Part shown: positions 2,547 through 60,359 of the stretch, in pieces
How the letters are laid out: each line of letters begins with the position of its first letter
How positions within the stretch are numbered: position 1 is the stretch's first letter
Assembly (NCBI RefSeq): GCF_022984075.1
Contig: NZ_JALAAD010000001.1
Span: 1,840,455-1,904,454, forward strand
Reading direction: 5' to 3'
Source: Synechococcus sp. C9
GTDB lineage: Bacteria; Cyanobacteriota; Cyanobacteriia; Gloeomargaritales; Gloeomargaritaceae
Length of the DNA: 64,000 bases
Program-made: the position numbers and the translations under genes
Notes under the pieces: generated by a model
Told to the model about the DNA's origin: nothing
Database searches by the model: none
What the model saw: the letters and a program-made list of their open reading frames with translations, nothing else

Positions 2547-3470
2547 ATGATGATGTCCTCGCCTACGGTCTGTTTGCATTGGCGCCCGGATGTGACCCAA
2601 ACGGGTTTGGCGTGTCAGGTGGTGGAAATTGAATTGTTGCGACCAGATCGGCTGATGTTTCCGCAGGATTTGTTGGAGTTGCGCCTGCCGTCTGAGTTGG
2701 AACCCCGGCGGGGCGTGATTCTCACGGGACGTGCCCCGATTTGGCTGTACGGTTGGCTGGTTCATGCCTGCCATCACACCCGTTGGGTCGCCTGTTATGA
2801 CCCACGCCTGGGGGCAGTGGTTGTGAGTACCCATCACCCGGAAGTGCGGCTGGGGGAGGTGCTGTGGCTCCAATCCCAAGGGCAACGGACTCGGCTGGCG
2901 GCGGCGGTGATGGTCGTGGGTCCCCCGAACAGCGGCAAAAGTCTCCTGAGTCATGCCCTGTTTCAAGCCCTACTGCCCACCTGCCCCGAAGTGTACCTGC
3001 AACGGGCGCACTGGGATGGGGAGGGCAATTGGTTCCTGGAAATCCCCGACCCACAGCAGGGGCAAGCCCTCAAACAACAGTATCGGGGAACCGAAACACG
3101 GGAGTTTTTCCCAGTTCAAGCCCAAGCGATTCTCAATTTACGGCGGCAAAAACAACTGGTAATTGTGGATGTGGGGGGTAAGGTTGACCCAGCCAAACAA
3201 CCGATTCTGGAAGCCTGCACCCACTATCTCATCGTTAGCTGTGAACCCCAAGCCATCCCCATTTGGCATGAATTTTGTGCGGAACGGGGCAATTTACAAC
3301 TGCTGGGCATTGTCCATACCTACCTGGGCAAAGGTCAACGGGTGCGCCAGGAACTTCCCTATGTGGAAATCGAGTTGGGAATGCCCCTCGATACGGTGCC
3401 ATCGCTCCTGTTCAACGTGATCCGCAATCTGGCTCTGCCCATGAAATTAGAAGGGTATATTTCCAATTAG
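2547..3470 (+). CDS. csx3: Csx3 ring-nuclease domain fused to a P-loop ATPase
   Basis: The N-terminal ~110 residues carry the Csx3 signature (GRAPIWLYGWLVH, then CYDPRLGAVVVSTHHP). Csx3 (Crn3) is a CARF-like enzyme that degrades cyclic tetra-adenylate and so switches off type III CRISPR signalling. A P-loop follows, GPPNSGKS at about residues 125-132, with a Walker B-like LVIVDVGG near 205, so the second half is an AAA/KTI12-like ATPase. Csx3-ATPase fusions are known in cyanobacteria. A TTG lies at 2541, but three in-frame ATGs begin at 2547 and I use the first. The gene diverges from the CARF-RelE gene across about 105 bp, placing an activator-read toxin beside a likely signal-degrading enzyme. 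Confidence 0.85.
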   Translation: MMMSSPTVCLHWRPDVTQTGLACQVVEIELLRPDRLMFPQDLLELRLPSELEPRRGVILTGRAPIWLYGWLVHACHHTRWVACYDPRLGAVVVSTHHPEVRLGEVLWLQSQGQRTRLAAAVMVVGPPNSGKSLLSHALFQALLPTCPEVYLQRAHWDGEGNWFLEIPDPQQGQALKQQYRGTETREFFPVQAQAILNLRRQKQLVIVDVGGKVDPAKQPILEACTHYLIVSCEPQAIPIWHEFCAERGNLQLLGIVHTYLGKGQRVRQELPYVEIELGMPLDTVPSLLFNVIRNLALPMKLEGYISN

Positions 3471-3513
3471 AGGTATAAAGGGATTGTGGTAATCGTTTTA
3501 TTGAGGAGGAACT

Positions 3514-4452
3514 ATGAATGCGGTCGCAAAAGTGGGATGGTGGGGTGGTGCGCTGTTGCTGACCCTGTGGACAAGACAAGTGGTGTTTGGGCTGTTGCCG
3601 GTAGCAGTTCTTTTCCAGCGGCGGCAATGGCAACAAATTCACCATATTGTTGACCAAAAGATTGCTCAAGAATTGGGAACCAATCAGCATTTAATGACCC
3701 AATTGGCTGACCAAATTCACGGGTTACAAATCCAAGTGAATGATTTAACTACCAATGGTCATAGCTCTGCGGCAATTCGGCAGAATACTGTCCCGATTAT
3801 TCAGCAAATTCATTTGATTCAGCAACGATTGCACCAAATGGAAGTGACAACAACGCCCCAAGTGCAACAGTTAAACAACCAAATGATGCAATTACACGCT
3901 CAAGTGGATATGCTGGCGCAGGGGATGATTCCTCGGCAGGGTGTGGGCGTATTTATTGATGGGGCAAATCTCCACGCCAGTGCCCGCCAAATGGGAGTGG
4001 ATTTGGACTACGCTCAACTGCTTCCCCGTTTATTACCTAAGAATACCCCCGCCAGTGCCATTCACTTTTACAGCGGTTATGACCGGAATAATTTACAACA
4101 ACGGCGCTTGCATCGGGATTTAGAACAAATGGGGGTGCAACTGCATCTAAAAGAAGTCACGCAATTTGCCAACGGCGCTACCAAAGCCAATTTGGATGGG
4201 CAAATAATTGTGGATTTGCTAATCAATACCTTTGCCCATGTGATTCTGATGAGTGGGGATGGGGACTTTGTGCCTGCTTTGGATCATTTACACCGGCAAG
4301 GGGTACAAATTACGGTGGCGGCTTTTGGGAAAAATACCAATCAAGAGTTACAGCAAAAATTCCCCTTCCGGGATTTAGCCAAATGTTGCCCAACTGCTGG
4401 CAAAGTCATTCCGTTACCGGCAAAACAAACCCGCAAATACGCTCATTCATGA
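3514..4452 (+). CDS. Membrane-anchored coiled-coil NYN-domain ribonuclease
   Basis: A 312-residue protein in three parts. Residues 8-33 form a hydrophobic segment (WWGGALLLTLWTRQ onward), probably a single membrane anchor. Residues 36-135 are glutamine-rich heptads, a likely coiled coil. Residues 143-290 form a NYN (LabA/DUF88) PIN-like nuclease fold with the acidic metal-site motifs VFIDGANLH, KANLDGQIIVDLL and MSGDGDFVPAL. NYN domains cleave RNA. An AGGAGG sits just before the ATG. The gene follows Csx3 by 43 bp and precedes the HD hydrolase by 10 bp, so all three may form one operon. I know no fixed CRISPR role for it; a place in the defence module is inferred from position. Confidence 0.8.
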   Translation: MNAVAKVGWWGGALLLTLWTRQVVFGLLPVAVLFQRRQWQQIHHIVDQKIAQELGTNQHLMTQLADQIHGLQIQVNDLTTNGHSSAAIRQNTVPIIQQIHLIQQRLHQMEVTTTPQVQQLNNQMMQLHAQVDMLAQGMIPRQGVGVFIDGANLHASARQMGVDLDYAQLLPRLLPKNTPASAIHFYSGYDRNNLQQRRLHRDLEQMGVQLHLKEVTQFANGATKANLDGQIIVDLLINTFAHVILMSGDGDFVPALDHLHRQGVQITVAAFGKNTNQELQQKFPFRDLAKCCPTAGKVIPLPAKQTRKYAHS

Positions 4453-23389: not shown

Positions 23390-23658
23390 TATAGCAATCC
23401 TAAATAAGAATGGAACAGGGGTCGCAGGGTATCGCCCCGTGCTTGCTTCTTAGGAATCTGGTTCTTTCTACCAATCATCTCAGATTGTCCTAGGAGAATA
23501 GGGGTCGCAGGGCATCGCCCCGTGCTTGGTTCTTAGGAATTTGGTTCTTTCCATCAATCATCTCAGATTGTCCCAGGAGAATAGGGGTCGCAGGGTATCG
23601 CCCCGTGCTTGGTTCTTAGGAATCTGGTTTTTTCCATCAATCATCTTAGATTGCCGTA
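23390..23658. repeat. MITE-derived tandem array, 83-bp unit, three core copies
   Basis: Begins with TATAGCAATCCTAAAT, the usual MITE left end, and finishes in a decayed right end (GATTGCCGTA). Between them the core GGGGTCGCAGGG followed by ATCGCCCCGT recurs at 23421, 23504 and 23587, an exact spacing of 83 bp, with TTCTTAGGAAT and CAATCATCTCAGATTG in each unit. It looks like one element expanded internally. No coding potential. Confidence 0.85.
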
Positions 23659-57540: not shown

Positions 57541-57999
57541 ATGAATTGGCGACCCATCACCGGATTGACCCTGGTTTTTTGGTGGCTCATGGTGGCTCCG
57601 GCGGTTGCCCAGGTGTGGCTGGAACTGATCCTCAGCCAGCGGCGGGTGCTGGTCTGGCGGGACAACCGGGTGATTCGCAGTTATCCGGTGGCGGTGGGCA
57701 AACCCGGCTGGGAAACCCCCCAGGGGGATTTTGTGGTGGAAGTGAAGGTCAAAGACCCGGTCTGGCAAAGTTTCACCAGCAGTACCCAAATCCCCGCCGG
57801 TCACCCCCGCAACCCCCTCGGTCGGCATTGGATCGGGTTTTGGAGCGATGGGGTGGATGAAATTGGGTTTCACGGCACCCCCCACCCGGAAACCGTGGGC
57901 AAAGCCATCAGTCATGGGTGTGTGCGGATGTATCCCCGGGATATTGCGGAATTATTCAACCTGGTGGAACTGGGAACCCCCGTGCGGGTCAGACGTTGA
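57541..57999 (+). CDS. L,D-transpeptidase (YkuD domain)
   Basis: 152 residues. A signal peptide or anchor (LTLVFWWLMVAPAVAQ) precedes a YkuD domain (about 27-150) with the catalytic motif HGTPHPETVGKAISHGCVRM, including His and the nucleophilic Cys. Such enzymes make 3-3 crosslinks in peptidoglycan or attach lipoproteins. Its last codons lie inside the left 21-bp direct repeat of the adjacent island. Confidence 0.9.
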   Translation: MNWRPITGLTLVFWWLMVAPAVAQVWLELILSQRRVLVWRDNRVIRSYPVAVGKPGWETPQGDFVVEVKVKDPVWQSFTSSTQIPAGHPRNPLGRHWIGFWSDGVDEIGFHGTPHPETVGKAISHGCVRMYPRDIAELFNLVELGTPVRVRR

Positions 58000-58003
58000 G
58001 GGG
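57983..58003 (+). repeat. Left 21-bp direct repeat of the inserted island
   Basis: Starts TGCGGGTCAGACG and ends TTGAGGGG. It contains the last codons and stop of the L,D-transpeptidase gene and is identical to 59082-59102. Confidence 0.92.
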
Positions 58004-58004
58004 C

Positions 58005-58034
58005 TTGACAAATATTTAATTTTAGAGCTAAGTT
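58005..58034 (+). promoter_or_regulatory. Sigma-70-like promoter for the island RNA
   Basis: TTGACA at 58005-58010 and TAAGTT at 58029-58034, an 18-bp AT-rich spacer. It begins two bases after the left direct repeat and points toward the hairpin-rich region. Confidence 0.6.
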
Positions 58035-58040
58035 AAAAAA

Positions 58041-58186
58041 AGGATGTAGCAGACTTGGAATTATTCCAAGACATCCCGTTACCCGCATAGGGTCGAGGAA
58101 ATCCGGTAAAGACGTTCTGAATATTGAAACATTTCCACTTCAAAAAGAAAATGTTTCAGCGGAGGCTCCCTAAGGAGCCTTTGTTA
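58041..58186 (+). ncRNA. Predicted structured small RNA, about 145 nt, unknown family
   Basis: Four hairpins in a row. (1) GGATGT/ACATCC (58042-58047 with 58071-58076) closes over CTTGGAA-TTA-TTCCAAG (58054-58070). (2) A small ACCC/GGGT (58081-58093). (3) A perfect 10-bp stem TGAAACATTT/AAATGTTTCA (58125-58134 with 58149-58158, 14-nt loop). (4) The terminator. No open frame with a ribosome site occurs here. It is not tmRNA, 6S, SRP RNA or RNase P RNA as far as I can tell. The promoter and terminator at sensible distances argue for a real transcript. Confidence 0.6.
58163..58186 (+). terminator. Intrinsic terminator of the island RNA
   Basis: AGGCTCC-CTAA-GGAGCCT (58163-58180) followed by TTGTTATTT. 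A 7-bp perfect stem with a U-rich tail. Confidence 0.85.
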
Positions 58187-58946
58187 TTTAGGAGGTTGTG
58201 GAAGCTTTTTATTATGCAGTAGGTTCTTGGCAATTGCGAAAAAGTTGACTTTCTGTATCTTACCCAACCCCTCATATCTCGGATAGGCACTTTTGATATG
58301 CAGTCTGAGTTTTTTACTCTCCCTAAATACGACAAAAGGAACAAAATAATCAACCTCGCAACCGTTAGAATTTAATACCTTAACAACCGCATAGTTATGA
58401 TAGCCAGCATGACAAACTATAGCTAAGTACGGTTAGGTTGTCGCCTCAAAAATTCTAGAGAACAAGCGCGTGGCTACGCCCTGCGACCCATATCTATGTC
58501 AACCTTTGCGTGTTTAGCTATAGGGTTTCCTTGTTGCCCAAAGATTTGATAATATTGGGTAAATTTTTTGAGAGTTCATATCTTTCAAAATTAAATGGTC
58601 TTGATTCCCTTGGGGCGTTGTACATCAGTCGCTGTGATTCTTCCCTAGACATTCCCTCCACTTCTTTGGTAAAACAATGTAGGCCGTAGGTGACAATAAA
58701 TTTATAGGTAATAGGGTTTTCTGAATTTCTTGTGTCGAGATACTCAACCCATTGGGCATCAAGATGAGATAAATCATAAACCATTCCGTCTAAAATAAAA
58801 TTTCTCCATTGGGTTACCTCATGAACAGTGGCAAACTTCATAATATTCTCAGAATCTAAGATGGGATCAGTGACCGTTAACTCTAAGTTTTTAGAGGCTT
58901 GTTTATGGCTCATTTCATTTGTATATACCTTGGGATTGTTGGGCAT
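58184..58946 (-). pseudogene. Island gene of unknown function, broken by a MITE
   Basis: The first part (58946 down to 58523) encodes MSHKQASKNLELTVTD, VHEVTQWRNFILDGMVYDL, CFTKEVEGMSREESQRLMYN and LPNIIKSLGNKETL, then meets a stop inside the inserted element. The frame resumes beyond it with VCHAGYHNYAVVKVLNSNG, VDYFVPFVVF, KKLRLHIKSAYPR and ends at 58184. Removing 103 bp (one TA plus the element) joins the parts in frame (KETL-VCHAG). An intact protein would have about 219 residues. No domain recognised; soluble, no signal peptide. Composition is AT-rich like the rest of the island. An upstream ATG at 58946 or one 11 codons later could be the start. Confidence 0.82.
58418..58522. mobile_element. 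MITE inserted in the island gene
   Basis: 105 bp counting both TA copies. Perfect 9-bp inverted ends TATAGCTAA/TTAGCTATA, and a core CTGCGACCCATATC with GGCTACGCC that relates it to the other elements. TA is duplicated at the edges. Its removal with one TA restores the host gene frame. Confidence 0.9.
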
Positions 58947-59081
58947 TAACCCGTTCTTGTTGAATGGCTACCCCATAATTCCTTGAATAGATTTTTTTAT
59001 GCTTAGGAAATATGCCGTAGCCTCAAATCTTGAAAGTGGGCAAGATTATCAACGATAGTGGCTACGCTGTCAAGCTGGAGA

Positions 59082-59102
59082 TGCGGGTCAGACGTTGAGG
59101 GG
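59082..59102 (+). repeat. Right 21-bp direct repeat of the inserted island
   Basis: Identical to 57983-58003. It contains the last two codons and stop of avtA on the minus strand. The base after it is G rather than C. Confidence 0.92.
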
Positions 59103-60359
59103 GATGCGCTGATAAACCCGTCGCACCACCTGGGTCAGGCGTTCCACCCCCCGTTCGATGTCCGTGAGGGAGGCGGTTAAACTGATCCGCACACATTGAC
59201 GGGCGTGGCTCCATTCCTGGCGCAAACCCGGGAAAAACGTATGCCCCGGCACCACAATCACCCCCACCTGTTTCAGTTCCTGGTAGAGTTCCCAGTCGCT
59301 CATGGGCAAATCCCGCAACCACAACCAGGCAAATACCCCGCCCTCGCCCCGATGCAAAAACCAGGGCAAATCCCCCGGCAAGCCCGCCCGCAGACCCTCA
59401 GCCAACACCGCCAACTTGTGCTGATAATGGGGGCGGATCACCGTCGCCGATAAATGGGCCAATGCCCCGGACGCAATCGCCTGTGCCGCCAACGCCTGCC
59501 CATACCGGGACGCATGGATACAGGCATTGGTCAAAAACCCTTCAATTGCCCGCAAAATCCCCTCATCCCCGATGGCAATCCCCACCCGCTCCCCCGGCAG
59601 ACCCGCCTTGGACAGGCTGATGCAGTGGACGATATTGGGGGCAAATACGGGGGTCATGGGCGTAAAATTCAAGCCCGGATAGGGCGCCGCATAGGCCGAA
59701 TCCACCAGCACCGGAATGTCCCGCTCGGCCGCCAACGCCGCAATCTGCCGCACCTCCCCCTCCGACAACACATTCCCCGTCGGGTTGCAGGGGCGAGAAA
59801 AAATCACACAGCCCGTTTCGGCTCCAAATTCCAACTGGTCAAAATCGGGACGGTACTTAAATTCATGCCCCTGTTCATCCACCGCCAAGGCTGGTCGCAC
59901 CGCCCGCAGGGATTCCGGCACCAAACAAATCCCCCCATAGCCCGTATAATCAGGACTCAGGGGCAGAACAATCTCCCGCCCCACCCCGCCAAAGGCATTC
60001 GCCGCAAAAAAATACAGGGATTGACTGCCCGGCGTCACCAACACATTCCGGGGAGTGAGCGTTAACCCATACCGCTGGTTAAAATCCGCCACCACCGCCT
60101 CAATCAAGGGCTGATACCCCTGGCTGGCACCATAGCGGCACACCACCTCCCCATAGTCGGGACTGGCCAACAACGCCTGGGTGCAATCCCGCCACAACTG
60201 CTCCACCTCCGGCAAAATCACCGGATTCCCCGCACTCAGATTGATCAAATCCTCCCCCGCCCGGGCTTGCAGGGTTTCCACAATGTCCTTCATGATCGCC
60301 CGCACCCCCGTCAGGCGGCTCATGGTGGCACCAAAATCACTCAGTTGTGGGTTCAGCAT
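59088..60359 (-). CDS. avtA: Valine-pyruvate transaminase-like aminotransferase
   Basis: 423 residues, fold-type I PLP enzyme. Seen: INLSAGNPVILPEVE, CRYGASQGYQPL, VTPGSQSLYFFAANAFGG, FSRPCNPTGNVLS, the PLP lysine in SISLSKAGLPGERVGI (printed order HCISLSKAGLPGERVGI) and CVRISLTAS near the end. The N-terminal LSDFGATMSRLTGVRAIMKDI is the AvtA hallmark. AvtA moves amino groups between valine, alanine and pyruvate. Start ATG 60359. Its 3' end is in the right direct repeat of the island. Confidence 0.88.
   Translation of the reverse strand: MLNPQLSDFGATMSRLTGVRAIMKDIVETLQARAGEDLINLSAGNPVILPEVEQLWRDCTQALLASPDYGEVVCRYGASQGYQPLIEAVVADFNQRYGLTLTPRNVLVTPGSQSLYFFAANAFGGVGREIVLPLSPDYTGYGGICLVPESLRAVRPALAVDEQGHEFKYRPDFDQLEFGAETGCVIFSRPCNPTGNVLSEGEVRQIAALAAERDIPVLVDSAYAAPYPGLNFTPMTPVFAPNIVHCISLSKAGLPGERVGIAIGDEGILRAIEGFLTNACIHASRYGQALAAQAIASGALAHLSATVIRPHYQHKLAVLAEGLRAGLPGDLPWFLHRGEGGVFAWLWLRDLPMSDWELYQELKQVGVIVVPGHTFFPGLRQEWSHARQCVRISLTASLTDIERGVERLTQVVRRVYQRIPLNV

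Follow-up and report, generated by a model that had tools for sequence, protein, structure and literature searches.

An island between two convergent genes of Synechococcus sp. C9 is a mobile sroH-yjaZ RNA/protein cassette that may encode an RNA-neutralised toxin

We found that the island lying between an L,D-transpeptidase gene (ldt) and avtA in Synechococcus sp. C9 is a horizontally moving two-gene cassette, in which a structured RNA of the sroH family and a homologue of the Escherichia coli protein YjaZ (HtrC) are convergent, each with its own promoter, and meet at one hairpin. The pairing of this RNA with this protein is well supported. As to what the pair does, the chances seem to us evenly balanced that the mobile cassette is an RNA-neutralised toxin, type III-like in logic, that is spread by addiction or phage defence. 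An earlier note on the same DNA had described the insertion itself; what the island is, namely an sroH-yjaZ cassette in which a MITE splits the protein gene, went unseen there. The window, meaning the whole stretch of 64,000 nucleotides that was analysed, contains the following features at this site:

57541-57999, + strand: ldt, the left neighbour, its stop codon (57997-57999) lying within the left repeat
57983-58003, no strand: left 21-bp direct repeat, TGCGGGTCAGACGTTGAGGGG, the stretch in which ldt and avtA overlap at their 3' ends (target duplication)
58005-58033, + strand: promoter-like site preceding the RNA (TTGACA ... GCTAAGT), adjoining the left repeat
58041-58188, + strand: intact sroH-family structured RNA, class 1 (Rfam match, model R1, covariation)
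58184-58420, - strand: 3' part of the yjaZ homologue, the C-terminal 78 codons with stop TAA at 58184-58186 (NF007263, E 2e-20, profile positions 104-179)
58418-58522, no strand: 105-bp MITE splitting yjaZ (TATAGCTAAG...TTTAGCTATA, with TA at both ends)
58523-58841, - strand: 5' part of the yjaZ homologue, start assigned by homology to the ATG at 58841 (NF007263, E 1.4e-23, profile positions 3-90)
59045-59073, - strand: predicted yjaZ promoter, TTGACA-17-GATAAT, an 11/12 consensus match, adjoining the right repeat
59082-59102, no strand: right 21-bp direct repeat, TGCGGGTCAGACGTTGAGGGG
59088-60359, - strand: avtA (aminotransferase), the right neighbour, intact, its stop lying within the right repeat

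The two exact copies of TGCGGGTCAGACGTTGAGGGG, spaced 1,099 bp apart, are the only ones in the window, and their coordinates place one gene stop in each, just as the earlier note had said. Between them lie 1,078 bp with 38.8% G+C, compared with 54.4% for the window, and the note's statement that no transposase is present held, as neither an integrase nor a transposase was found among the island's open reading frames. The note had also proposed that collapsing the repeats would give convergent genes overlapping at their ends, and that an AT-rich insertion had doubled this overlap while leaving both genes whole; it advised looking in relatives for ldt next to avtA with no island, and named the presence of the region in all relatives as the result that would speak against it. 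Five congeneric genomes (G002-G006) were found to have an uninterrupted ldt-avtA junction with a single copy of the site, and the 3' ends of the two genes overlap in all five. In one of them, G005, the 21 bp are letter-for-letter identical to TGCGGGTCAGACGTTGAGGGG and the flanks are 97-98% identical, so that the sequence duplicated around the insert is single in the empty site, as in the target duplication of a transposable element. These empty sites bear out the proposal: the insert duplicated the ldt/avtA overlap and left both genes whole. Because the pair is unique in the window and a single copy stands at the uninterrupted junction of five relatives, a chance origin of the 21-bp repeat is excluded. 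Further 21-mers repeated at short range do occur in the window, in arrays of unrelated repeats, for example near 23417, where repeated units (AGGGGTCGCAGGGTATCGCCCCGTGCTTGGTTCTT) at about 23417-23605 form a separate local family.

The protein gene of the island is recognizable along its whole length. When the two halves of the yjaZ homologue were joined, they showed 51% identity to E. coli YjaZ over 179 aa (the longer open frame of the 5' part starts at 58946). The halves score 83.9 and 73.5 bits, below the NF007263 equivalog cut-off of 324 bits, which suits E. coli-type YjaZ only, as a copy from an enterobacterial plasmid scores 228. The MITE was the only damage noticed in the aligned frame, and we therefore conclude that the MITE is what broke yjaZ; only the RNA half can probably still work in this genome. 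The 105-bp element resembles MITEs with TA target duplication in its short terminal inverted repeats, TA ends and many copies, and we take it to be of the Tc1/IS630-like type. Elsewhere in the genome 14 near-full and 9 partial copies of it occur, and G001 and G005 have roughly 35-45 copies each. Some of those in G005 match the one in the window at up to 97% identity, so the MITE moved recently. The 1.1-kb island differs from such elements, having no such ends and a 21-bp duplication instead.

On the opposite strand, Rfam model RF00372 (sroH) matched 58016-58156 with 41.9 bits and E 5.6e-8. Neither the window RNA nor any other cyanobacterial match reached the gathering threshold of 80 bits of this model, which is almost devoid of base pairs. 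With model R1, of which the window sequence is itself a part, the window RNA scored 118 bits. No group II intron, retron, ribozyme or other Rfam family matched, apart from a chance match to RT-8. Twenty-eight sequences, taken from cyanobacteria, enterobacteria and phages, were aligned; the alignment contained 36 pairs, in which 98.7% of cells were paired, and 16 of the pairs were changed on both sides. The covariation score was 0.299 compared with 0.116 when shuffled (0/500), it was 0.05-0.09 when the alignment was slid, and the covariation includes G-U pairs. Furthermore, a 3' hairpin of 10 pairs, with all cells paired and followed by a T-rich tail, is conserved throughout the alignment, and both homology and secondary structure are shared with E. 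coli sroH. The folded element is thus a real structured RNA.

In the window the closing terminator-like hairpin is at 58164-58179, and the yjaZ stop sits in the T-rich tail that follows. A strict terminator scan did not flag this hairpin because its tail reads TTTGTTATTT. The promoter of the window RNA has a perfect -35 and a poor -10; among 47 relatives, 77% have a sigma-70-like promoter scoring at least 9 at a near-fixed distance 5' of the RNA, compared with 9% of shuffles.

The earlier note had suggested a search for the ends of the island and its RNA elsewhere. The RNA was found at many loci, and the 21-bp repeat proved not to be general (see below). In E. coli K-12 derivatives, sroH and yjaZ are arranged as in the window and lie between thiH and rpoC, themselves two convergent genes. 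Of 5,426 E. coli genomes, 3,714 contain sroH and 3,709 yjaZ, and the thiH-rpoC junction is without either in about 1,670. In the E. coli O157:H7 record H109 and in records H110-H111, the sroH-yjaZ region has a deletion of about 70 bp and the rest matches the K-12 locus. The window thus shares with E. coli sroH (RF00372) and yjaZ/htrC the parts, the convergent order, the spacing and the place between two convergent genes. It differs in phylum and site, in its MITE-split yjaZ, in scoring below the Rfam gathering threshold and in its 21-bp target duplication.

Among 390 cyanobacterial genomes, the RNA was adjacent to all eight strong YjaZ matches (the split copy of the window genome, G000, being counted), and a weak ninth match, in G241, had an R1 match beside the gene. 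A pattern scan of 84,980 species yielded 41 RNA loci, in cyanobacteria and gammaproteobacteria only. At most convergent loci, the distance from the start of the RNA core to the end of yjaZ beyond it is 100-115 bases. Two orders of the cassette occur, the convergent one in most loci and a tandem one, RNA-terminator-yjaZ, at L146, L154 and L109. The pair was also found on plasmids, among them a 2.5-kb plasmid on which a single further gene is annotated, and on phage contigs; viral contigs of IMG/VR matched, and INPHARED phage records gave no match to sroH or YjaZ. On the P2-like viral contig L049, an intact sroH RNA (2929-3061) lies near the portal gene, without yjaZ.

YjaZ proteins more divergent than these are carried by plasmids, where 722 records match one such query. 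Past the stop of divergent yjaZ genes of plasmids and proteobacteria we found at least two additional kinds of RNA-like stretch that are absent from Rfam. Loci of class 1 and those that were duplicate, broken or cut off were set aside; of the 21 others that combined a divergent gene with sufficient flank, 20 were read as having an RNA-like stretch (L169 being doubtful), a count made by eye and not an independent test. The class 2 RNA (TGAACGG or GACCGGTGAAAGCGCCC ... GAGTGGGATAACCAAGAGG) lies downstream of yjaZ at L136-L143, L147, L148 and L160, and has covarying hairpins with compensatory changes in 8 of 10 predicted pairs among few sequences. The only sequence that model R2, built for this class, found below E = 1 was a near-identical copy held out of it. 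More distant held-out loci were not recovered, and class 2 is therefore claimed for the aligned set only. The class 3 RNA (GGRTGGTTACAGGG ... CGCAYCCCG ... GCTGAG and a hairpin) lies downstream of yjaZ at L144, L145, L150, L151 and L153, with compensatory changes in 15 of 45 pairs among five sequences only; two of these loci were matched by the sroH-type model at E about 0.01. Beside five divergent genes from outside the model, R1 found the adjoining stretch (L064 at E 8e-4; L151, L145 and L158 at about 0.01; L136 at 0.06). At 22-23 bits these matches are weak by score, and an unrelated place in L126 gave 23.6 bits, so the evidence lies in their position and not in the score. We tentatively propose, with the balance tilted slightly against it, that sroH and yjaZ/htrC are one member of a widespread mobile family of RNA-neutralised toxins (or phage-defence ribonucleoproteins) in Cyanobacteria, Proteobacteria and Deinococcus, having a protein fold unmatched by solved structures and several co-diverged RNA classes, two of them absent from Rfam.

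The evidence that bears most directly on function comes from loci in which one partner has been lost. Among the 390 cyanobacterial genomes, five further ones (G001, G119, G244, G249 and G367) hold the RNA without yjaZ, as do at least 13 of the 41 scanned loci, counting those with enough flank. The RNAs that stand alone mostly score 127-146 bits, like paired ones, and two with a broken 3' half score 78-89. At L125 the RNA is accompanied by a yjaZ stump of 32 residues, and comparison of L106 with L100 showed a deletion that had removed yjaZ as far as the RNA. Among the loci surveyed, no yjaZ was shown to lack the RNA; as most loci were found via the RNA, this asymmetry is partly ascertained, and its unbiased part is the cyanobacterial survey. 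An RNA that outlasts the protein, with no protein shown to be without the RNA, is the pattern that an antitoxin would leave, and the window, with its broken protein gene and intact RNA, fits it. We infer that YjaZ is toxic and that the RNA binds it. In the proposed mechanism, YjaZ would be a growth-inhibiting protein and the RNA an antitoxin that binds YjaZ and neutralises its action; the RNA could then outlive YjaZ, YjaZ could not do without the RNA, and the cassette would spread through addiction or phage defence.

The main rival, which we regard as possible but unlikely, is that RNA and YjaZ form a working ribonucleoprotein, a stress regulator or a phage-defence effector, with the RNA as an essential cofactor and not an antitoxin. 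Linkage, co-divergence and covariation are the same under this reading, the unpaired AGAC and TTCTGAATACC stretches are fixed, as expected for a protein-binding RNA, and carriage by phages and plasmids would suit defence. However, it leaves unexplained the repeated retention of high-scoring RNAs after loss of yjaZ, and the PADLOC defence families matched neither YjaZ nor the plasmid recombinase described below.

The toxin reading was also compared with known systems. Two AlphaFold models of YjaZ were both confident, and Foldseek searches with them against PDB and BFVD returned nothing significant; the best match to a solved structure was HigB2 (E 0.11, TM 0.25/0.37), which was absent with the second model. 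Sequence searches of PHROGs, Pfam and PDB with YjaZ likewise gave nothing significant. Residues R141, H143 and S146 of the protein, in the numbering of the E. coli copy L126, are invariant. Type III toxin-antitoxin systems are defined by a repeat RNA antitoxin upstream of the toxin in one operon (PMC5086642). The cassette resembles these systems (ToxIN, CptIN, TenpIN/AbiQ) in combining a structured RNA and a small protein with a terminator-type hairpin between them, the RNA being associated with a Rho-independent terminator, and in its carriage by plasmids and phages; moreover, the RNA-upstream order of the three tandem loci is that of type III operons (PMC5086642). In contrast to type III, the cassette RNA is a single unit and not a set of repeats, even at the tandem loci, and is usually convergent with its own promoter, as in the window. 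Nor does YjaZ match ToxN-like proteins in sequence or fold, as neither model showed the MazF/Kid-like endoribonuclease fold and the PDB sequence search was empty. As repeats and fold thus both speak against membership, only type III-like working is claimed: by analogy, the cassette may work like a type III pair without being a member. A likeness to type II RelE/HigB systems consists of the faint HigB2 hint in one model and the RelE/RelB genes found beside sroH on one plasmid type, whereas no significant structure or sequence match was obtained and the partner in the cassette is an RNA, not a protein.

No publication linking sroH with yjaZ or giving the pair a function was found among the papers searched. 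E. coli SroH has been reported to bind kbl mRNA in a gel-shift assay, its sole reported target (PMC6172242). This binding, and the persistence of orphan RNAs, would suit an ordinary base-pairing regulatory RNA with targets of its own and yjaZ as a mere neighbour. We consider this improbable, since the pair moves jointly between phyla, plasmids and phages and the switch from convergent to tandem order leaves the linkage unbroken.

Still less probable is that the fold serves mainly as a recombination site in DNA, resembling attC, with the protein gene as exchangeable cargo of a tyrosine recombinase. On the IncFII plasmid L045 (3001-3758), sroH is followed by RelE/RelB in place of yjaZ; about two dozen plasmid records carry an sroH copy at the same 81% identity as L045, and a 236-aa tyrosine recombinase lies beyond sroH-RelE/RelB on this plasmid type. 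Such replacement of the cargo next to a recombinase, and the resemblance of the 21-bp repeat to an integration scar, are what a recombination site might be expected to leave. The near-fixed promoter and the covariation including G-U pairs, however, fit a transcribed RNA, the recombinase was seen beside these plasmid copies only, and cargo other than yjaZ is rare.

General flanking repeats, which also would be expected of a recombination site, were not found. A comparable repeat was sought at 18 other RNA loci and none was convincing, except for a dispersed repeat in L033. In E. coli, the only other cassette for which an empty-site comparison was possible, comparison of occupied and empty sites did not reveal a simple target duplication; the genera of G089 and G077 have too few genomes, and in the genus of G288 the empty-site search was confounded by dispersed repeats. 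The 21-bp duplication is therefore not a general feature of the cassette, and a duplication of the same length was lacking at most other insertions of the element and at the E. coli site.

The history of the site among congeners was less simple. G005, the genome closest to G000 (96% in an independent gene, 97-98% at the flanks), is without the insert, and G001, which like G006 is about 85% identical to G000 in the independent gene, has the RNA and a decayed remainder of the insert at the same ldt-avtA place. On its left, 86% identity extends unbroken from the flanking gene to the RNA; on its right, the repeat is lost and the end of avtA altered. A HicB-like antitoxin reading frame lies inside the decayed G001 island (L027, reverse strand, about 3230-3535 of the reverse complement). 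As the insert is present in G001 and absent from the much closer G005, either there was one old insertion with precise loss in G005, or the same site was hit a second time. The 21-bp repeats would allow such a precise loss, which is likely if only one insertion occurred. That the region is instead ancestral and was lost in relatives is hardly credible, even though its presence in G001 could be read this way, because the empty junction, with its gene overlap and single 21-bp copy, is common to all five island-free relatives, including the most distant one, and the base composition of the insert is foreign.

At this site, comparison with the sister strain and the empty junctions reveals that a whole cassette was cleanly gained or lost where two genes share an end. 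The sroH and yjaZ/htrC genes of E. coli are long known, but the small RNA and the protein have both stayed orphans; as one mobile two-part system they would acquire a testable function. The yjaZ-family genes on about 700 plasmid records, many of them from Klebsiella, join the candidate addiction or defence loci, and candidate RNA classes absent from Rfam are supplied. Should there be a direct interaction between the two partners, the several RNA classes, each with its matching proteins, would form a natural series for the study of RNA-protein co-evolution.
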